From positions 1 through 29,544 of IMG/VR virus record IMGVR_UViG_3300020214_002530: DNA of 29,544 nucleotides, one strand, 5' to 3'. The translations under genes and the position numbers were made by a program. Every line of letters begins with the position of its first letter. The first letter of the stretch is position 1. The notes below the pieces were generated by a model, which was given only the letters and a program-made list of their open reading frames with translations, was not told the DNA's origin and searched no databases. Positions 12,345 through 29,544 of the stretch are shown here, piece after piece. This DNA is from a virus.

Positions 12345-14819
12345 ATGTACATAGACGGTATAGAACAAAAAAGAAATATTTTATTTGTAGAGGATAACTT
12401 TGCATCATTAGAGAAAGTTGATCCTTTGAATGATTCTATAACAAACATTAACAAAGACCTTCATTTTAAGTTTTATTTCAAAGTTTCTCAAATAAAAGCG
12501 ATTCAAGAAGGATGTTTTTCTGTATCTGTCGCAGTTAGAAATCAAAACAAGCAAATACCTGTAATAGTTCCGAACACTAGAGGCGGAGAAATTAATACTG
12601 AAAATTTGGTTGATAATATTTTAACAAATAAAACAAAAATAAAAAGCCAAGACATGAAAGAAGAATCTTTCATAGTTGCAGAAAAAACAGCTGATATTAG
12701 CTCTAAAATAGACAATAGGTTTTTAACATTATTAAGGTCAAATTCAATAGATGAGTCGCAGTTTGTTAAAACAAAAGTTTTAGTAAGAAAAAAGATAGAT
12801 GAACAAAACATAGACGTTACATACAATCAAAATGATTTAAATAAAAAAGTTTTAACAAGAACTGGGTTTGCTGATTTAACTATTCTTAAATCTTCTATAA
12901 AAGAAGAATCAGAAATTATAAAAAATAGATTTAAGTTACTAAACTCTTTAATACCTCCCTCTTCAGTTACGTCAGTTTCAAATAAAACTATAACTCCTTA
13001 TTTGTCTTTAACTGGGTGTATAAATCCTTTATCAAAAAAGAATTTTAGAAATTCAGATTTAAATTCTTTATCATATTTTCATCATAACAATGAAATTCAA
13101 GATGAAAAAAGACAAAAAAGTAAAAATGAGTATGAAACAATAATTGATCAAAAATTTGATGATCTTATAAAAGTTAATGTTGATGTTGTTTTAAAACAAT
13201 CTCACATGTATCAGCCTTTTCTTATTGTAGAGTTTAAACTAATAAAAACTGTAATCGATTCAAACAAACAAACACAAAAAGTAGTAATAGAAACAATAGA
13301 AAAAAAATTAGATATTAAATCTTATTATGATAATTTTTTATTTGAAGATTATCAACCTTTGTCAGTAGGAGTTTCTAGAAAAAACCAAGAAGTTTTTTTG
13401 CAAATAAGCAATCCGAATGAAGGTGTTTGTTCTGTTCAAATATACGGTAAACACATAAAAAACTTTAATGAATCTTCTTTTTATAAAGTAGGTTCTTTGG
13501 TACTAAATGCAAAAAACGAAATAGGATTTAAGAAATTAATTGATAATGATATAGATTCTATTTATAGAGTCGTTGCTTCGAATATAAGAAACGGTAATTT
13601 ATCTAACGATTTTACGGATGTTGTTGTAAAAGATTTAAGAAGAATATCAAACAATGAAGTCATTGTAATTCCGCAATTAAACGCTGGAAAAATCAATATT
13701 ACTGTAATAAATAACTCTTATAATTTTGGAATAGTAGCTTGCAAAATTTTATATAGAAATGTTACAAAAAAAGAGTCTAGCTATTCAATATCAACAATTA
13801 TAGATTTATCAAATCAAAAACAATACTTTACTACTATTACAGCGAGGTTAATACCTTATAATGATTATGAAATTACTACTAAACTTATTTATCAAAATGG
13901 AATAGAAGTATTTTCTCAAAATTCTAATTTAATTAAATACATCCCTTATATTGGAGGTTTTTCAAATATAAGTGTAAGAAATATTGTTTCTTCCGTAGGA
14001 AATAATGTGACTTTCGATATAAATTCTGAACTACAACAAAGTGAACTTTCTATAATAAGAGATTTGATGGGGACAATTTCTACTGTTTTTGATACAACAT
14101 ACTACGATTCAAAAACTTCCGAATATGAAAAATTTGTTGCATACCAAATCTATCGTTACAATAAATCAGATGGTAGTTGCGATGATTTAGGGATCATAAA
14201 AAATAATTCTTCATTTTCTGATGTAGATCAATCTAAAATAAAAGGTACAAGTCCTGCAATAAATGGTGGAAGATATAGGTACGTAATCTACCCATTATTA
14301 AGAGATCCAGAAACTATTTTTGAAACTAAAAAAGAGTTTACTGATCATGAGACAAAAAAAAAGTATACTGTAAACGTTAGAAAAAGTAGACATCCTTTAA
14401 CTTTGATGAGAGGAAGTGTGGTGTCAAAATCAATAGTTGATAATGATTCCACTCCTGATATGTTATATGGAATGGTAGGAAACTGTGTACATGTTGATGT
14501 CGACGTTGGAACAAATCAGTTTCCATCAATAAAAAACTTTTCTGTAAACCAAGTTAGTAATAAAAAAATTATTTTAACTTGGAATGTTGAAGGAAACATA
14601 AAGAAGTTTGATCATATTTTAGTTTTTAAAGATGAAGGCGGAATTAGAACGTTAATAGGAAAAACACATTGTTTGCAACAAGAGTTCAAATTTGGTTATA
14701 ATTTATCCAGCAATGATATAGGTAACATTAGATTTGTTTTGACACCAATATTACAAGATTATTCGACTGGAAGATCTATAATGTCTTCAGATTATGTTTT
14801 GGTTAATGATGTGGAATGA
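12345..14819 (+). CDS. Large virion protein with fibronectin III-like domains
   Basis: An 824-residue protein with mostly beta-strand character. The C-terminal part (about 726-824, IKNFSVNQVSNKKIILTWNV through VLTPILQDYS) looks like a fibronectin type III-type sandwich, with the SxKKIxLTW strand and a closing YVL strand. The preceding 250 residues contain two more stretches of similar strand pattern (KINITVINNSYNFGIVACKI and FVAYQIYRYN), so two or three tandem domains are likely. No enzyme motif is seen. The next gene starts inside its stop (ATGA). Such domains are common in tail, baseplate and decoration proteins, and I infer a virion surface or tail role. Confidence 0.72.
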   Translation: MYIDGIEQKRNILFVEDNFASLEKVDPLNDSITNINKDLHFKFYFKVSQIKAIQEGCFSVSVAVRNQNKQIPVIVPNTRGGEINTENLVDNILTNKTKIKSQDMKEESFIVAEKTADISSKIDNRFLTLLRSNSIDESQFVKTKVLVRKKIDEQNIDVTYNQNDLNKKVLTRTGFADLTILKSSIKEESEIIKNRFKLLNSLIPPSSVTSVSNKTITPYLSLTGCINPLSKKNFRNSDLNSLSYFHHNNEIQDEKRQKSKNEYETIIDQKFDDLIKVNVDVVLKQSHMYQPFLIVEFKLIKTVIDSNKQTQKVVIETIEKKLDIKSYYDNFLFEDYQPLSVGVSRKNQEVFLQISNPNEGVCSVQIYGKHIKNFNESSFYKVGSLVLNAKNEIGFKKLIDNDIDSIYRVVASNIRNGNLSNDFTDVVVKDLRRISNNEVIVIPQLNAGKINITVINNSYNFGIVACKILYRNVTKKESSYSISTIIDLSNQKQYFTTITARLIPYNDYEITTKLIYQNGIEVFSQNSNLIKYIPYIGGFSNISVRNIVSSVGNNVTFDINSELQQSELSIIRDLMGTISTVFDTTYYDSKTSEYEKFVAYQIYRYNKSDGSCDDLGIIKNNSSFSDVDQSKIKGTSPAINGGRYRYVIYPLLRDPETIFETKKEFTDHETKKKYTVNVRKSRHPLTLMRGSVVSKSIVDNDSTPDMLYGMVGNCVHVDVDVGTNQFPSIKNFSVNQVSNKKIILTWNVEGNIKKFDHILVFKDEGGIRTLIGKTHCLQQEFKFGYNLSSNDIGNIRFVLTPILQDYSTGRSIMSSDYVLVNDVE

Positions 14820-17800
14820 AAATGATTAAAGTTCCAAAAATAAAAAAAGATTTTTTCGCAAAATTAGGAACGCCGACATCTCAAGCAGTTCCATCCAAAA
14901 TTGTCCCCATCAAATCTCTAAAAAACATAACACAAACATCTCTTTTACAAAATGTAGCAGCAATTTCTTCAGAAGCTGCAAGAAATGTCTTGAAAAATGT
15001 TCAACAACAAAATGATGGAAAAAAAACAGTAAAAGGTAAAATACAAAAAAATGCTGGAGAAATGATGTCTGCACTGGGAGTAGTTCCTCTTGCAGAAAAT
15101 TTGAAACTAGCATTGCAACTAGGTATATTATTAGAACCAGAAAAACCTGATTATAATTCAGAAGAGTATAAATCTTCAATCACGTTATATCGTCCTGAAA
15201 TAATAGCATTGACAAAGTTTAATCCGTTATATGATGACAACTTAATTAAAACAGAATACGGAAATTTATTTGAAGCATTGATAGAAACTTTAAGAAAAGT
15301 TGATGTTGATGAAAGAAATAAAGTAAATGAATCACCATCTCAACAAGATGCTATTTTAAAAAATAATCAAAAATTAAAAGAAGAATTAAATGCATTAAAT
15401 TCCAAAATAAAAGAATTGGCTTTTTTTATTCAAACATTTGTTACGTTGCAAAACTCTATAGATTTATCCAAGTTCAATTTTTCTCCTCAAGAATTTTTAT
15501 CTTTTGAATTTCAAAATTCTCAAGCTTTTTCAACATATGATTCGTTAAAAAACTATGTTTCTAAAATGGAAAAAAGCTTAAACTTGAATAAGTCTTTGCA
15601 CTATAGCTTATCATACAAAAACAAAAACAAAGATAAAAAAGGAGACTACTTTGGTTCTCCCCCTACAAGATCTTGGGTTGTAGCTTTAGAAGAAATGAAA
15701 CAAATGATTCATTCTCATTCTAGAAAAAAAATGAATTTAAAAATGAATGATGATGGTCCTGGATATTTAGGATTTGGATTTTTAGGACTTCCTGATATCA
15801 TTTCTAATGATAGAATTACAGCTAAAAAAATTATTGATTTAGGAAATGAATTCATAGGAGAAACTGAAGATATCCTTGATGGATCAAACAGATTTTATAC
15901 ATTACAAGAATATATTTCAAGGTTTAATGAGCAAGTTGATGGTGTTTCTACTGTTTTATATGTTATGCTAAAAGAAATAAGACAAAGAGCATGTTTAAAA
16001 GCGTTAAACCAAGACATCTCATTGCAATCTAGAAATCAAAAAATAAATTCATTAATTTTGAATTCATATTCTACAAACGGGCTAGTTTATAAGCGACAAG
16101 ATCCATTCACTAGCGTTAAATTGTATGATATAGGTTATTTTGGAGAATTAGGTAATAGAAATAACACGATTTTTGCTTTAGAAAAGCAAAAGTTACCTGG
16201 TGTCACAAATGGCAACGATTACTTTTTTAAAGATTTTGGTGCTGAGTCTTTTTTTACTCAAATTCTTTCTCAAGAAGGAACGACTGATAAAGCTAGAATA
16301 GATGATTTTACGTTGACTTTAGGGGCTGTAGATAAACTATTTTCAGAATATTTACTAAATTCTGGAATATTGCCTATAGATGACGCTAAGATACATGATG
16401 TTAAGTTTTCCACAAATCCTGTTACGTTTTTGGAAGATATTTGTTCAAAGCTTTTAGATACACAAGGCAGATTTTTGTTGACAAAAAAAATTGGAGAATC
16501 GCCAAGTGGAAAAGGATATGTAGGAGCAGGAAATCATGATCTAGATGTATTAATGCTATTTGGACTAGCGTCTGGAAATTCTATTTCTAAATCAAAGATG
16601 AAATCTAGGGATCTTATTTTAAAAACATTGTCTTGGAATGCAGGAACATATAGACTGCAAATAGAGGATAGAACTCCAGAAAAGAATATATCAATATTAA
16701 AAAATGCTTTATACTCTTATGTACTAAAAAGGTTGTCCGGACAAAAGGGAGCTGATGAAGCAATAAAATCTATAGCTTTTAGAATATATTTTGTTCTCAC
16801 CAACATTGCTGATGTTGTTGGTGCTGGGTTGATAACAAATGACGATTATGTCAGCGGCGCAGCAGCTATACTTGTTAGCGCTTTGGAAGGTCTTATAGGA
16901 GGACCGCTCGGCTCGATCGCCGCCGCCGTTTACACCGCAGTACAGAACGCAGATCCCGCTTCTTTACATTTTGGCGTTCCATTACAAGAAGGAGAGCAAC
17001 AAAGCGTTCTGATATCTTCAGATCCAGACAATGGATTCTCAGATAATGAGAGACAAATCATAGGACCTACAACAACTGGAGCACCTGAACCAAGAAATGT
17101 AGCTGCTTCAGATGAGTATATAAAATGGGGTATGTGGAGTATACAATCTCAACCAGATTCTGCTGAGGATCCTTCATCAACAGCTGAACCATTTGCAATT
17201 CAAGATATCATTACAACTTTGCAAAGTTCTACATTTATTGATGAAATTGTAGAGTTAATGAGACCTGTTGTCGAGTCAGACTTAGGAGAAGATTTTTCTT
17301 TAGCTTATTTTGACATAATTTGTAATTTAATCGGAGGTCTTGCTCCAATTAAAGATATAAGAGTATATATCGACGATTATCATATGGAAGACGACGCCGG
17401 CCACGCGGGAGGAGCATTTAAGACAGATAATGAAATTAGAAGTGCATTAGTATTTTTTACTCATTTTTACAGACATGAATCTGTAGCTCAAGAAGTAGCC
17501 GCTACATACAAACAGCAAATTTCTAATAACTTAATAGAAGAGACAAATTCTTTAATTTCTTTGTCTTTTTCAACTCTTAATGTTGTTAGCAGTTTTTTAA
17601 ATACTTTTAAAGAAATCAATAATAAACTTCATACTTTTAAAAAAGATATAGCTCAATATTTTGCAGCTTATTTAAATAATGATCCGAAAAAGTTTGCTTT
17701 GATGTTTACTGAACAGCAACTTTCGTTAATAATCAATTCTTTTCAAGACTTTTTTAATTCATACAATGTTTTTACAGAGCAAAATGAAAATGATACTCCG

Positions 17801-18886
17801 ACAGATCAATTGTTTAGTAATAGATTAGACAGCCTTCCATATTCTACAAAGATTGTTCAAGCGACTAGAAGGTTTTTTAAAGATAAAGACTATACGCTAT
17901 CGAAGGGGTATAATAAGCAAATCTTAACAGTAGGAATACCTCAAGGATTATTGAAAGATTTATTTAATAAATCTGTTGCAAAATCAATTAACACAGGAGA
18001 AATAAATTTATCAAAAGTTAATGATATTTTTAAAATTCTTGTCTATAAAATAGACTTATTAAATGATGACTTAGTTTATCTTCCTCAAGAATTTTTGTTT
18101 GAAATGTCAAGATTTGTTATAAAAGATTATTCTAAAATAAACCCAACCGCAAGATTATCTTCTGATTTTGAAGATTCACTATTTAGATTTTTTTCAACAA
18201 GAAATTTTTCAATTTATGGATCTAAGTCAAATAGTCTTTTTGAAGAAATCAAGCCAAAATCAAAAGTAAATGAAGTTTTTTCTTCAGCGGAATATTCTAA
18301 ATTTCTTAATAAAGATGAAATGTCTTCTATACTAAAAAATCATATAACTAGTTTTATTTTAGAAAATTATTTACAGATTTTGTCTGGAATGAAATTAAAC
18401 GAAAATTCTTTTATATTATCTGAAGCTAATGAAGTGGAATCTTTATATCAAGATCTCGTTGGTGCGAAGGTAGGAAATAAAGGAGAAATAAGCTTTGGAG
18501 AAAAGCTTTCAAATAATTTGCTAGCTTCTCCAAGTATACAATTAAAAAAGTTATTACATCCTAAAGTTTTTGATAGAGTTTTTAATATAATTTTTGATCC
18601 GGATTCTTTTATTGTAGACGAAAATAAAACTTATCCATCTATAATAAATAAAATGGAACAAAAAAGAATTATAAAAAAAGTTACGTATCAAGGAAAAACG
18701 TATTATGTTGATAATGACAGATCTTTCAAAGATCCAGCATTAAATTCATATTTTGTTAATATAGAAACTTTTAACACACCGGTTGATATAGTTGATTCAA
18801 ACACGACAAAACCAATATCAAACGTTGGTGGAGTTAAAGGAGACAAAAATGGAAGTGCAAAAGGACCAACTTGGCTTAAGAAATAA
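14816..18886 (+). CDS. Very large virion protein (1356 residues), tail or baseplate candidate
   Basis: The longest gene in the window. The N-terminus is basic and Ala/Ser/Gln-rich. A coiled segment lies near 177-212 (ILKNNQKLKEELNALNSKIK). A hydrophobic, Gly/Ala-rich stretch (about 669-712, including ILVSALEGLIGGPLGSIAAA) could be a membrane-interacting helix, but no signal peptide is present. The rest is mixed helical and strand, and the C-terminus ends in GDKNGSAKGPTWLKK. No known family is recognised. Length is compatible with a tape measure or a central baseplate component; evidence does not decide. It starts at ATG 14816 overlapping the previous stop; an in-frame ATG at 14822 is an alternative. 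It holds two short GC-rich codon islands (see findings). Confidence 0.7.
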   Translation: MKMIKVPKIKKDFFAKLGTPTSQAVPSKIVPIKSLKNITQTSLLQNVAAISSEAARNVLKNVQQQNDGKKTVKGKIQKNAGEMMSALGVVPLAENLKLALQLGILLEPEKPDYNSEEYKSSITLYRPEIIALTKFNPLYDDNLIKTEYGNLFEALIETLRKVDVDERNKVNESPSQQDAILKNNQKLKEELNALNSKIKELAFFIQTFVTLQNSIDLSKFNFSPQEFLSFEFQNSQAFSTYDSLKNYVSKMEKSLNLNKSLHYSLSYKNKNKDKKGDYFGSPPTRSWVVALEEMKQMIHSHSRKKMNLKMNDDGPGYLGFGFLGLPDIISNDRITAKKIIDLGNEFIGETEDILDGSNRFYTLQEYISRFNEQVDGVSTVLYVMLKEIRQRACLKALNQDISLQSRNQKINSLILNSYSTNGLVYKRQDPFTSVKLYDIGYFGELGNRNNTIFALEKQKLPGVTNGNDYFFKDFGAESFFTQILSQEGTTDKARIDDFTLTLGAVDKLFSEYLLNSGILPIDDAKIHDVKFSTNPVTFLEDICSKLLDTQGRFLLTKKIGESPSGKGYVGAGNHDLDVLMLFGLASGNSISKSKMKSRDLILKTLSWNAGTYRLQIEDRTPEKNISILKNALYSYVLKRLSGQKGADEAIKSIAFRIYFVLTNIADVVGAGLITNDDYVSGAAAILVSALEGLIGGPLGSIAAAVYTAVQNADPASLHFGVPLQEGEQQSVLISSDPDNGFSDNERQIIGPTTTGAPEPRNVAASDEYIKWGMWSIQSQPDSAEDPSSTAEPFAIQDIITTLQSSTFIDEIVELMRPVVESDLGEDFSLAYFDIICNLIGGLAPIKDIRVYIDDYHMEDDAGHAGGAFKTDNEIRSALVFFTHFYRHESVAQEVAATYKQQISNNLIEETNSLISLSFSTLNVVSSFLNTFKEINNKLHTFKKDIAQYFAAYLNNDPKKFALMFTEQQLSLIINSFQDFFNSYNVFTEQNENDTPTDQLFSNRLDSLPYSTKIVQATRRFFKDKDYTLSKGYNKQILTVGIPQGLLKDLFNKSVAKSINTGEINLSKVNDIFKILVYKIDLLNDDLVYLPQEFLFEMSRFVIKDYSKINPTARLSSDFEDSLFRFFSTRNFSIYGSKSNSLFEEIKPKSKVNEVFSSAEYSKFLNKDEMSSILKNHITSFILENYLQILSGMKLNENSFILSEANEVESLYQDLVGAKVGNKGEISFGEKLSNNLLASPSIQLKKLLHPKVFDRVFNIIFDPDSFIVDENKTYPSIINKMEQKRIIKKVTYQGKTYYVDNDRSFKDPALNSYFVNIETFNTPVDIVDSNTTKPISNVGGVKGDKNGSAKGPTWLKK

Positions 18887-21579: not shown

Positions 21580-22788
21580 ATGGCAACGTATAAGAATTTA
21601 GAACCTTCAGACGTAAAAACAGCTAGATCTTTTTTAAGCCAGTTAATAGATGTTATTCAAGAAGATGTTAGCGGATCAACATCAAGAAGAAAATATCAAG
21701 TTTTCGTAACTGGAGGTATAGGCCCTGGGATTACTTCATCTTTATTTCAAACTGTTTATGACCAGGATTTTAGCTTACAAACTGCTAACCAAGTATTTGA
21801 TTGTACGATTGGATTGTTTCAAAATTCTGATATAGTTTCTTCTTCATTAGCTGGAGTTGACTCTGTAGGAAAAGAATTGTTTCCATCTTCATCATTAATG
21901 ATGAGAGAAAAGATGGATAACTATAGACAATTTGCACAATTGCTTTTAGGAGATTCTGATTCTCGATTTGTAGCTCCTTATGATTCAAACAGTGCAAATG
22001 ATAAAATAGATGCAGCATTTTTCATTGCATTTAAGAGGTTATTTGCAAGAGATCAAATTAAGAGAGAATCTTTCGCAATGAGATTTTATCAATCTGCGTC
22101 TCTTTGTAGGTATGACGGTGCTCCCAATATTCCGAACATTTATTCTACTTCAGAATTAGGCGTATCTGTTTATACAGATATAGGATCTTCTAACGAAAAA
22201 TTTAATGTGTTCGGAGGTCAGTTAGGGAATATAGTAGATGCTGCTGATACTACAAGAACAGTAGGACTAATGTTCTATGATAGAGGAATAGCGATATTAG
22301 ATTTAGAAAAAGTTGTTTCTGCATCTCAATTTATGTCTGGAACCATTGACGCAATGACACCAACTGGATATACTATATTAGGACACGCAGGTACTGCAAC
22401 TGCTGGAATTTCTAAGTTTATACCTGATTTTATAGTTTCAGCATCTATAGACAACGTCGTAGATCATATTTGCGCTACAAGATTTAGTTCAGGATCTCAA
22501 ACTGCAATAACGTTTCAAAATACTACAAACATCAATAGCACGTTGATATTCTGTCGTGCAGGAGCTGATGAATTTAATTACTCTTCGAATCCTACATTCA
22601 CAGATTCTAACAATAGAATAGTCGTAATAGATCCAGGACAAGAAGATACTCAACAAACTTTTACGTTTATTACATCTGTAGGTTTATATGATGCAAATGA
22701 CAATCTTCTTGCCACTGCTAAGATGAGTCGACCTGTAGAAAAGAGTCCTGAAAGAGATTTGACTTTTAGAGTTAGATTAGACTTTTAA
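21580..22788 (+). CDS. Virion structural protein, with C-terminal module shared with the next gene
   Basis: A 402-residue protein. The N-terminal part is helical (LEPSDVKTARSFLSQLIDVI), the middle mixed, and the C-terminal 50 residues carry FITSVGLYDANDNLLATAKM and PVEKSPERDLTFRVRLDF. The same pattern closes the protein of the next gene, so both probably share a binding or assembly module. No enzyme or signal motif is visible. It follows the previous stop by 14 bases, with no ribosome site. Location in the virion block argues for a structural role, probably tail or baseplate. Confidence 0.75.
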   Translation: MATYKNLEPSDVKTARSFLSQLIDVIQEDVSGSTSRRKYQVFVTGGIGPGITSSLFQTVYDQDFSLQTANQVFDCTIGLFQNSDIVSSSLAGVDSVGKELFPSSSLMMREKMDNYRQFAQLLLGDSDSRFVAPYDSNSANDKIDAAFFIAFKRLFARDQIKRESFAMRFYQSASLCRYDGAPNIPNIYSTSELGVSVYTDIGSSNEKFNVFGGQLGNIVDAADTTRTVGLMFYDRGIAILDLEKVVSASQFMSGTIDAMTPTGYTILGHAGTATAGISKFIPDFIVSASIDNVVDHICATRFSSGSQTAITFQNTTNINSTLIFCRAGADEFNYSSNPTFTDSNNRIVVIDPGQEDTQQTFTFITSVGLYDANDNLLATAKMSRPVEKSPERDLTFRVRLDF

Positions 22789-26412: not shown

Positions 26413-26976
26413 ATGAATTTAATTTTAGGGTTAGACGTTTCAACAACAGTGACGGGAATATGCATTTTAAATTCTAAAATTTCTCCTGATGATAAAGGTT
26501 CTCATATAATTTATTTGGACAAAGTAGATTTTAAGAAATGCAAGACATTGTGGGAGAAAGCAGACGTTATTGCAAATGAATTTTCAGATTTGCTATCAAA
26601 ATATCCTGGAGAGTATTCCGTTTCGCTTGAAGAACCCCTAATGGGATTCAGAACAGGAATGTCTTCTGCTGCAACAATAACGACATTGATGAGATTCAAC
26701 GGAATAGTTTCATACATCTCAAGAGAAATATTTAAGGTTGATCCTGCTTACATTGCATCATCTTCAGCAAGAAAACTTTGCGGCATAAAAATGCAAAAGA
26801 CGTCTATTGCAGGAATGAGCGGAAAAGAACAAGTCTTTAAATACATGTCTGAAAATGATTTGAAGCACATCACTTGGCCCACAAAAAAGAATGGTGATGC
26901 CGTTGATTGGAGCCGTGATGCGACCGACGCTTATGTCGTCGCAAGAGGATACTCTTTATTGTCTTCGAAATCATGA
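26413..26976 (+). CDS. RuvC-like Holliday junction resolvase
   Basis: A 187-residue RNase H-fold nuclease of the RuvC type, expected to cut four-way junctions during recombination, replication or packaging. LILGLDVSTTVTGICIL carries Asp8, SLEEPLMG has Glu73/Glu74, and SRDATDAYVVARGY supplies the C-terminal Asp169 and Asp172, so the four-acid site is present. The insertion SSARKLCGIKMQKTSIAGMS lies between them. Length matches RuvC (about 170). It lies nine bases after the methyltransferase and before the primase, in the replication group. The order with SbcCD suggests a recombination-dependent replication module. Confidence 0.85.
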   Translation: MNLILGLDVSTTVTGICILNSKISPDDKGSHIIYLDKVDFKKCKTLWEKADVIANEFSDLLSKYPGEYSVSLEEPLMGFRTGMSSAATITTLMRFNGIVSYISREIFKVDPAYIASSSARKLCGIKMQKTSIAGMSGKEQVFKYMSENDLKHITWPTKKNGDAVDWSRDATDAYVVARGYSLLSSKS

Positions 26977-27016: not shown

Positions 27017-27991
27017 GTGCATTCTTTGTCTGATAAGATAAAGTTTTATGAGTCTATCTTTGGTCGCGGAAGAATTTCTAGCAACGGAAAGAACTTCGAC
27101 GTTAGGTGCCCAATATGCGCACCTCTAGACCCAACTAAAAAGAAACTTGCGATTAGAACTACTGATGATGCAAATCATTGTTGGGTATGCGGATTCAAAT
27201 CAAGAAGTCTTATTCCTTTATTAAAGAAGTATGGCACGCAGGAACATTTAAATGCATATAGAGCGCTAATCGGTATCGACGGAAAATCGACTCTACTAAC
27301 TGCGCAAGTCGATAAAGTTGAAAAGATAGAATTACCAAAAGATTTTCAACTTTTGACGCTAGCAAACTATGATGATCCTGACGTTAAAGCTGCATGGAGA
27401 TATGTTTATTCAAGAGGATTATCGGATAGAGATGCATGGTATTTTAAGTTTGGATTATCTAATGAAGCAAAATGGCACAGAAGAGTTATCATGCCATCAT
27501 TTGATGACAGAGGAGAACTAAACTATTTTGTTGCAAGAGCGATTGATAAAGATAAAAAGCCTAAGTATGACAATCCTGATGTTGATAAAAACCCGATTGT
27601 TTTCAACGAAATAAACATAGACTGGTCAAAAAGACTGGTCTTGGTAGAAGGACCTTTTGATTTAGTTAAATGTCCTGAAAATTCTACTGCGTTATTAGGG
27701 TCAGATCTTGATGAACGTCATGAAGTTCTTAATAAAATTTTATTAAATAACACACCGGTTGCTTTAGCGCTTGATGGAGACATGTGGAGTAAAAAAACTC
27801 CTAAAATAGTAAAAAAGTTACAAGAGTATGATGTTGATGTTGTAGTCGTCGACGTCAGACCGTGGGAAGATCCAGGTAGTATGTCAAAGGCTGAATTTGA
27901 AGATGCTCTTTGTTCTGCAAAACCTTTGCTTTGGCAAGACAGGTTTTTGACAAAATTAGATAAATTTGTTTCTTCAAGTTTCAGATTTTAA
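27017..27991 (+). CDS. DnaG-type DNA primase (zinc ribbon plus TOPRIM)
   Basis: A 324-residue primase that would make RNA primers at the fork. The N-terminus has a CPIC...CWVC zinc site (Cys 31, 34, 55, 58, with His54 beside it). The TOPRIM domain follows: LVLVEGPFD (Glu211), ALDGDMW (Asp253, Asp255) and PWEDPGSM (283-289). It has no helicase domain, so it resembles stand-alone phage primases of the T4 gp61 kind and would need a separate replicative helicase, not found in this window. The start is GTG 27017; an in-frame TTG at 27026 is possible and there is no strong ribosome site. It is 45 bases upstream of the SbcD-SbcC gene. Confidence 0.9.
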   Translation: MHSLSDKIKFYESIFGRGRISSNGKNFDVRCPICAPLDPTKKKLAIRTTDDANHCWVCGFKSRSLIPLLKKYGTQEHLNAYRALIGIDGKSTLLTAQVDKVEKIELPKDFQLLTLANYDDPDVKAAWRYVYSRGLSDRDAWYFKFGLSNEAKWHRRVIMPSFDDRGELNYFVARAIDKDKKPKYDNPDVDKNPIVFNEINIDWSKRLVLVEGPFDLVKCPENSTALLGSDLDERHEVLNKILLNNTPVALALDGDMWSKKTPKIVKKLQEYDVDVVVVDVRPWEDPGSMSKAEFEDALCSAKPLLWQDRFLTKLDKFVSSSFRF

Positions 27992-28036: not shown

Positions 28037-29544
28037 ATGGCTATTATAGCTCACATTGCCGATGTTCATTGGCGCGGATTGAGTCGCCACGATGAATATC
28101 GTGAAGTATTTTCGTCTTTTATCAAAGATTGCAAGAAAAATCGTGTCGACCACATTTTTGTTGGTGGAGACATTTTTCATACAAAAACTTCTGGAATTTC
28201 TCCTGAATACATCGATCAGTTGACATGGTGGCTTGAATCCATGTCAGAAGTTGCGCAGGTTCATTTAACGCTTGGAAATCATGATGGAAACTTGACAAAT
28301 CTTACTAGACAAGATGCTGTTTCCCCTATCGTTCAAGCTCTTAATAATCCTAAAGTTCATCTTTACAAAAAGAGTGGAGTATACGAGTTTGTTCCTGGGT
28401 TTAATTGGTGCGTTTATAGTCTTTTTGATGAAGAAAATTGGGACAAAGTAAAGCCTGAATCTGGAAAAATCAATATTGCATGTTATCACGGAGCAGTTTT
28501 AGGATGTCTTACCGAATCTGGATGGGAGATCGATGAATCACACATCAAGGTAGAATTTTTTAAAGATTATCCTTTTACTTTTCTTGGTGACATTCATCAA
28601 ATGCAGTATTTGGGATATAGAGAAGACTATAACGGAAATAAAAAACCATGGATTGCTTATCCAGGAACGCCTCTTCAGCAAAACTATGCCGAAGAGCTTG
28701 ATCACGGATATTTGTTATGGGATATTAAATCTCAAGATGATTGGGAAGTAAGCTTCAAAAAGCTTCCTAATCCAAAACCTTATGTTACCATTCAATGGGC
28801 AGGTTCAAAAAAAGATTTTTTAAAAGAAGCTTCAAAATATCCAAAACAAACTCGTTTTCGTATTAAATCTGCGATCGATCTTTCACAAGATGATGTTTCA
28901 TTTTTAACTGAAACCTTGAAGTCAAATTACTCAGCGACTGAAGTAACTTTTAAATCTGAGTATAGAGCAGAAAGCGAAACGATCAAGGCTGGATCATCTA
29001 CAATTGCAAAGTCTGACTTGACGTCATCTGATGTAATTTTAGGATTAATTCAAACTTATTGTAAAGAGAATGGTGGGTCAGACGCCGACTGGGATAGCAT
29101 ATCTTCTCAAATAAAAAAGTATATGTCGACAGTTGCATCATCTGATGATTATGTCAAAGGATCAAAATGGTCATTGAGACATCTGAAATGGGACAATACA
29201 TTTGGATATGGAGAAGAAAACGAAATTGATTTTTCAAAATTAAATGGAATCGTAGGAATATTTGGATCCAACAGAATTGGTAAATCTTCCATCGTCGGAA
29301 CGATGATGTATTCTTTGTTTAATTCTACTGATAGAGGATCTATAAAGAATCTTCATGTTTGTAACATTAGAAAAAATTATTGTTCTGCTAGAGCAATCTT
29401 TGAGCATAACGGAAAGCTGTATATTACCGAACGCCAAACGACTAAATCAATTACGAAAAAAGGCATTGTTAATGCTTCAACATCATTAAACTTTTTTAGG
29501 ATGAGAGATGATGGTGATGTTGATGATTTATGCGATGATATCAG
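28037..29544 (+). CDS. SbcD-SbcC (Mre11-Rad50) fusion nuclease, partial at right edge
   Basis: One frame runs from ATG 28037 to the window end (502 codons, no stop). Residues about 1-330 are an SbcD/Mre11 calcineurin-type nuclease: IAHIADVHW (Asp9, His11), GGDIFH (43-48), GNHDG (80-84), CYHGA (His151) and GDIHQ (His187). From about residue 375 the SbcC/Rad50 ATPase begins: WSLRHLKWDN, then Walker A GSNRIGKSS (410-418) and KLYITERQT. In T4, gp47 and gp46 are separate genes; here both are in a single polypeptide. An internal ATG (29123) could start a separate SbcC but has no ribosome site. The coiled coil and C-terminal ATPase half are beyond the window. Together with RuvC and primase it forms a recombination-replication group. 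Confidence 0.9.
   Translation, partial: MAIIAHIADVHWRGLSRHDEYREVFSSFIKDCKKNRVDHIFVGGDIFHTKTSGISPEYIDQLTWWLESMSEVAQVHLTLGNHDGNLTNLTRQDAVSPIVQALNNPKVHLYKKSGVYEFVPGFNWCVYSLFDEENWDKVKPESGKINIACYHGAVLGCLTESGWEIDESHIKVEFFKDYPFTFLGDIHQMQYLGYREDYNGNKKPWIAYPGTPLQQNYAEELDHGYLLWDIKSQDDWEVSFKKLPNPKPYVTIQWAGSKKDFLKEASKYPKQTRFRIKSAIDLSQDDVSFLTETLKSNYSATEVTFKSEYRAESETIKAGSSTIAKSDLTSSDVILGLIQTYCKENGGSDADWDSISSQIKKYMSTVASSDDYVKGSKWSLRHLKWDNTFGYGEENEIDFSKLNGIVGIFGSNRIGKSSIVGTMMYSLFNSTDRGSIKNLHVCNIRKNYCSARAIFEHNGKLYITERQTTKSITKKGIVNASTSLNFFRMRDDGDVDDLCDDI

Follow-up and report, generated by a model that had tools for sequence, protein, structure and literature searches.

A nuclease and an ATPase in one frame

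Is the DNA-end-processing enzyme that phage T4 makes from gp47 and gp46, and bacteria from SbcD and SbcC, encoded as one chain at this locus, and what has become of that chain in related phages? The window, which is the whole of virus record IMGVR_UViG_3300020214_002530 (29,544 bp), carries an open reading frame on the plus strand (28037..>29542) that begins with ATG at 28037 and runs for 502 codons, stop-free up to the contig end. Pfam searches of this frame matched Metallophos at residues 4-187 (E 4e-10) and AAA_23 at residues 387-475 (E 4e-6), and PHROGs searches matched the SbcD-like phrog_100 (E 1e-27) and the SbcC-like phrog_77 (E 4e-11). The nuclease motifs DVH, GGDIFH, GNHD, YHG and GDIH start at residues 9, 43, 80, 150 and 184, respectively. 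A first-pass annotation had placed the nuclease motifs and the Walker A in a single frame, with the Walker A at residue 410. Both domains were found in the one frame, and GSNRIGKS starts exactly at that residue. These results show that the window ORF is an Mre11/SbcD nuclease joined to the first half of a Rad50/SbcC ATPase in one protein. The separate proteins of T4 and bacteria are homologous to its two parts.

The coordinates of the gene and its neighbours are listed in Table 1. The primase gene also adjoins the fused gene in L017, L042, L063, L072, L159 and Microcystis phage Mel-JY01. Two further ORFs of the window, 14816-18886 (1,356 aa) and 21580-22788 (402 aa), gave no Pfam match and by position are likely virion proteins.

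Table 1. Features of the window and of the split relatives (L numbers denote related loci)
Feature	Position	Strand	Evidence
RuvC-like Holliday-junction resolvase gene, neighbouring recombination gene	26413..26976	+	phrog_159 (E 1e-6), phrog_827
DNA primase gene, directly upstream of fused gene	27017..27991	+	phrog_47, E 1e-39
5' part of fused SbcD-SbcC gene, 502 codons	28037..29542	+	Pfam, PHROGs; completed by L002
Mre11/SbcD-like metallophosphoesterase domain, residues 1-232, boundary approximate	28037..28732	+	Pfam; boundary from L002 model
Beta-hairpin, residues 190-208, between GDIHxxQ and YPGxxxQQN	28604..28660	+	L002 model
Capping region, residues 233-310, boundary approximate	28733..28966	+	L002 model; analogy with Mre11
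Two helices, residues 331-345 and 352-367	29027..29137	+	L002 model
Linker of about 9 residues (368-376), nuclease to ATPase	29138..29164	+	L002 model
Rad50/SbcC ATPase lobe start, from residue 377, cut by contig end	29165..29542	+	AAA_23 387-475; L002 model
Walker A GSNRIGKS, residues 410-417	29264..29287	+	motif position
Split gene regions	L042 4393-8550; L017 1846-5121		
Further split relatives	L041, L065, L064, L030, L069, L120, L147, L051, L159, L072		

Integrity and completion of the frame

The window gene stops before the coiled coil, and the remaining Rad50 part was read from relatives. Sixty related loci were found in IMG/VR, and those that were long enough mostly consisted of a single frame of 1,050-1,070 aa, with the Walker A near residue 410 and the Walker B near residue 990. 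One of them, L002, is 95% identical to the window over the shared part and continues through the coiled coil in one frame of 1,052 aa, with the signature CSGMEK and the Walker B FVIDEGFG in the Rad50 C half. In a wider search, the related stretches numbered at least 570. Both halves were present in 101 distinct genes, 89 of them unbroken and 12 split; these figures depend on search queries that were all unbroken genes.

We compared the window with L002 codon by codon. The 223 differences fell 21/12/190 by codon position, with no frameshift and no indel. Between 28991 and 29260, where a missed frameshift had been suspected, there were 34 differences (3/2/29 by codon position) and 0 indels. The first-pass annotation had proposed to follow the frame into the coiled coil, signature and Walker B, to check 28990-29260 for a missed frameshift, and to look for the same fusion in related genomes; run on L002 and the other relatives, all three checks spoke for the fusion. 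Neither a frameshift or stop nor the loss of the Rad50 C half, which it had named as grounds for doubt, was seen in the L002 comparison and the relatives.

The fusion could instead be an assembly or sequencing artefact, in which a missed stop or frameshift merged two adjacent genes. The window does terminate inside the gene, and the one frame of Listeria phage LMTA-57 against the two genes of the related LP-125 indicates that apparent fusions can come from small changes or errors. However, independent contigs carry the identical single-frame arrangement, and substitutions respect the reading frame throughout, including the suspected region. The frameshift artefact was rejected because of this codon-position bias and the conserved frames, and we regard it as scarcely credible.

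The Listeria pair was also inspected. LMTA-57 (L074 3917-6946) has the nuclease and the ATPase in one 1,009-aa frame, and LP-125, of the same genus (L076 3417-6447), has two annotated genes; the difference is either a recent fusion or a sequencing error. Fused genes were also present in bacterial and archaeal metagenome-assembled genomes (L077-L083), several on short contigs, and these are possibly misbinned phage contigs.

Predicted domain anatomy

A full-length model was obtained for L002 (pLDDT 81.5; pTM 0.49, which leaves the relative placement of the domains unsure). The predicted metal ligands D9, H11, D45, N81, H82, H151, D185 and H187 are invariant in 14 full-length relatives. The motif GDIH replaces the usual GHxH, so that one metal ligand is changed and the nuclease activity of the predicted enzyme may differ from the usual one. 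In the model, the hairpin that follows has strands at 190-196 and 202-208. It is unbroken in the window and is the break site of the split relatives described below.

The two-helix segment is probably the Rad50-binding helix-loop-helix, as judged from the model and by analogy with the description in PMC3175470. Beyond the window, the model has coiled-coil arms at 553-724 and 738-902, followed by the second ATPase lobe. Cys727 and Cys734 (L002 numbering) lie at the coiled-coil turn and are invariant in the 14 full-length proteins. The turn cysteines are spaced C-x6-C in nearly all relatives, compared with CxxC in the usual Rad50 zinc hook. A profile search of the PDB matched both SbcC and SbcD chains, and Foldseek matched Mre11-Rad50 structures. 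The best viral structural matches were giant-virus fusions, which aligned over nearly the full length.

The fusion belongs to the R555 type

The first-pass annotation had presented the fusion as a departure from the norm. The fusion and the complete Rad50 half of close relatives are real, but the arrangement has a precedent. Yoshida, Claverie and Ogata described Mimivirus R555 and twelve other Mre11/Rad50 fusions in 2011, from plasmids, bacteria, eukaryotes and one phage, Bacillus phage 0305phi8-36 (PMC3175470). The same account argued that environmental R555 homologues are mostly viral, many of them from phages, on scaffolds that also carry phage primases. It calculated that a linker of 9-12 residues is enough, and listed two active-site changes of the type, His for the third Asp of GDxxD and Asp for His206 of Pyrococcus Mre11. 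Mimivirus and the Bacillus phage were described there as having no separate SbcD/SbcC genes in the same genome.

We found the following features of this type at our locus. An N-terminal Mre11-like part and a C-terminal Rad50-like part share one frame, the Rad50 C half being seen in the relatives only. The motif is GDIFH or GDIVH, with D45 and H48 invariant in 14 relatives, and Asp185 of GDIH, likewise invariant in 14, occupies the position of Pyrococcus Mre11 His206. The capping region, the helix-loop-helix and the linker length before Rad50 also agree, in the predicted model only. Thus the window fusion is of the known R555-type kind described in 2011, sharing with it the single chain, the domain order, GDxxH, the His206-to-Asp change, a similar linker and the primase neighbour. 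It differs from R555 in length, about 1,050 aa compared with 1,351, and in its setting, since it occurs on large contigs that also carry genes of tailed phages. In six large contigs AAA_23 matched once each, although the completeness of these records is uncertain and some have other metallophosphoesterases. Fusions also occur in the cultured Microcystis phage Mel-JY01 and Tenacibaculum phage PTm1.

The single conserved frame, the conserved motifs, the domain order and the structural kinship were observed directly, and from them we infer how the enzyme would work. The chain would dimerise through its nuclease and ATPase heads, and ATP binding and hydrolysis would open and close the path by which DNA ends reach the nuclease. 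The helix-loop-helix would dock on the base of the coiled coil, as in separate Mre11-Rad50, and the linker of about 9 residues would keep nuclease and ATPase at 1:1. The first proposal, that the fusion would fix stoichiometry and tether the nuclease to the ATPase, is a reasonable one. The enzyme likely serves DNA-end processing for recombination-dependent replication and repair.

Relatives split at one hairpin

Split fused genes were found in the 12 relatives counted above and in one found later. Their first frame ends after about 215-245 codons, and coding resumes downstream. In every case the break falls between GDIHxxQ and the strand that runs towards QQN, which is the tip of hairpin 190-208, inside the nuclease domain. 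The N piece ends in an acidic tail, e.g. EVEIEIDEDDLFKYPGCTIIE, and the C piece starts with a basic strand, MGKKIKIKVKKPW.

What lies between the pieces varied. L041 and L042 have a 300-aa ORF there that matches homing-endonuclease families and Vsr, and the start codon of the C piece overlaps the last endonuclease codons. L065 has kept both ends of the endonuclease and has lost the middle, and L064, L017 and L030 have shorter remnants. No endonuclease is present in L069 and L120, where the gaps are 24 and 15 nt, or in L147 and L051, where stop and start overlap as ATGA and GTGA. At this position the deep relative L159 has an endonuclease 39% identical, and its tail and tag read NYEEIEIDEKEIEIYLKNGWEIV and MSKKIKIFRKTPEVRW, respectively. 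L072 (4662-5579; LR756508, a 484-kb phage record) has a different, TnsA-like endonuclease at the same break site, an indication that the hairpin has been targeted repeatedly. An endonuclease gene between two pieces of a gene, the arrangement known as genes in pieces, was therefore present in L041/L042, L159 and L072.

The ends of the N tails were also compared. KYPGATV and KYPGCTI (e.g. L147, L064, L069) resemble AYPGSTV and AYPGTPI of the native post-break strand, perhaps through duplication of the target. In L159 and L072, YLxxGW takes the place of the KYPG-type end, and the N tail of L072, a distant relative, ends in EDELEKYLNSGWKLDENLDDY. Endonuclease relatives lie between what were judged by eye to be halves of a tRNA nucleotidyltransferase-like gene (L163, L164, L176, L178), a possible further case of genes in pieces, and beside what were likewise judged to be the two parts of a split intein (L160 2380-3429).

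Spread of the cassette and constraint on the tails

On a tree of the post-break part, 10 split rows need 9 changes (shuffled mean 9.7), a count that does not distinguish gains from losses. A single origin of the split followed by plain descent was rejected on this count. L042 and L064 come from different clades. Their DNA identity is 48-64% beyond 120 nt after the break, but 93% over the 45 nt before it and 90% over the 60 nt that immediately follow it. The own-clade L006 reaches 69% and 73% in the same two flanks. This co-conversion around the break is the pattern left by homing, and the cassette, judged by this sequence pattern, has passed from one clade to another together with about 100 bp of flanking DNA.

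The 22-codon N tail was then examined for constraint. The nonsynonymous difference rate was below the synonymous rate in 28 of 28 pairs, including endonuclease-free copies; these are raw proportions over a short stretch in non-independent pairs, and they indicate constraint but not its strength. Conservation of the tails after endonuclease loss gives indirect support to the idea that the two pieces would assemble into an active enzyme. Degenerate DNA patterns of the C tag and the N tail gave 11 and 6 stretches, respectively, all in known split-gene records. Re-use of the tails elsewhere was rejected for these exact degenerate patterns, which would miss diverged tails.

Proposed reassembly of the enzyme from two pieces

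The tails have alternating E/I and K/I residues, so that one face would carry the opposite charges and the other would be hydrophobic. We modelled L120 from read-through rows, with the stop read as serine and five artificial residues linking the pieces. In this model the hairpin strands are longer, at 188-200 and 221-235, and are separated by a helix and an extra strand; block pLDDT is 85-93 over most of the lengthened-hairpin stretch; the artificial link may favour the pairing that the model shows. From the tail sequences and this model, we infer beta-strand pairing between the acidic N tail and the basic C tag, which would restore the nuclease domain from two separate chains with no splicing step.

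The split genes might instead be decaying pseudogenes, freshly broken by the endonuclease and carrying functionless tails. Their scatter, mostly near the tips of the tree, would agree with this. Against it, both frames remain full length, the protein sequence of the tail is kept after endonuclease loss (pN < pS in every pair above), L051 and L147 have neat stop/start overlaps, and L159, though a deep relative, still has recognisable tails. Decay is thus an unlikely account. A full-length protein might also still be made from the split gene through an intron, an intein or translational bypass, since homing endonucleases often ride in introns and inteins and the pieces share a frame in L017, L030, L069 and L120. 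An intron was rejected because the gaps, down to 15 nt or replaced by overlaps, leave no room for one, and because L042 4300-6700 gave no Rfam match to a group I or II intron. The tails, about 22 and 9 aa and read by eye, have neither the junction residues of an intein (Cys, Ser or Thr at the N junction, His-Asn before the C extein) nor its length of about 130 aa, and an intein was rejected for the absent junction residues. Read-through or bypassing was rejected because the frame relation between the pieces differs in L064, L065, L051, L147 and L072. We consider this whole group of explanations very unlikely.

Reassembly from two chains is the reading we prefer, and a fuller account of it can be given with moderate confidence. 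A homing-endonuclease cassette would have repeatedly cut the fused gene at one hairpin, and its tails would act as a charge-complementary beta-zipper, restoring the nuclease as an assembly of two chains. The cassette would bring its own repair, spread between phage clades at little cost, and stay as a fixed two-gene enzyme after endonuclease loss.

Two known kinds of broken gene resemble this one. The ribonucleotide reductase gene of Aeromonas phage Aeh1, NrdA, is split by the endonuclease gene mobE (PMC2988022). There, as here, a free-standing homing-endonuclease gene interrupts the gene of a phage enzyme, and two coding pieces result, with no intron or intein. The enzyme and the endonuclease are different in the present case, and the split recurs across clades with the endonuclease, its remnants or neither. 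A 2011 paper is said to have shown that the Aeh1 NrdA tails mediate assembly of the pieces. Dassa et al. reportedly described, in 2009, fractured genes with split inteins and Vsr-like endonucleases. Those genes, too, are reported to be broken into two pieces that flank a Vsr-like endonuclease gene; unlike them, the present genes have no intein sequence, and the pieces would remain separate chains. A search of the open-licence literature returned no report of a split SbcD-SbcC fusion, which does not prove that none exists, and the re-split state is absent from the available part of the R555 account (PMC3175470). The re-split relatives look new, although the kind of fission is known from Aeh1 NrdA.

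Implications

Taken as a whole, the locus is very probably an R555-type phage SbcD-SbcC fusion, the equivalent of T4 gp47/gp46, with relatives that were re-split by a homing endonuclease and whose pieces would be rejoined by tails. In some relatives, an endonuclease gene has inserted at the tip of hairpin 190-208, and the broken gene persists as two pieces, each with a tail brought by the element. Since these relatives are split within the nuclease domain, the enzyme need not strictly be a single chain, provided that both pieces still work.

The phage fusions bear out what was predicted in 2011, namely that R555 homologues from the environment would mostly prove to be phage genes (PMC3175470), and structural studies gain in the fusion a compact Mre11-Rad50 of one chain. 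Of greater importance are the re-split relatives. In these existing sequences a selfish endonuclease can be followed as it breaks an important enzyme, supplies tails that appear to rejoin the pieces, passes between clades and vanishes. Fission of the Aeh1 NrdA type is thus seen in a different enzyme, with spread, decay and retained tails all visible. The tails may serve as short natural protein-joining tags. The endpoint after endonuclease loss would be a permanently two-part enzyme, which bears on the origin of multi-subunit enzymes.
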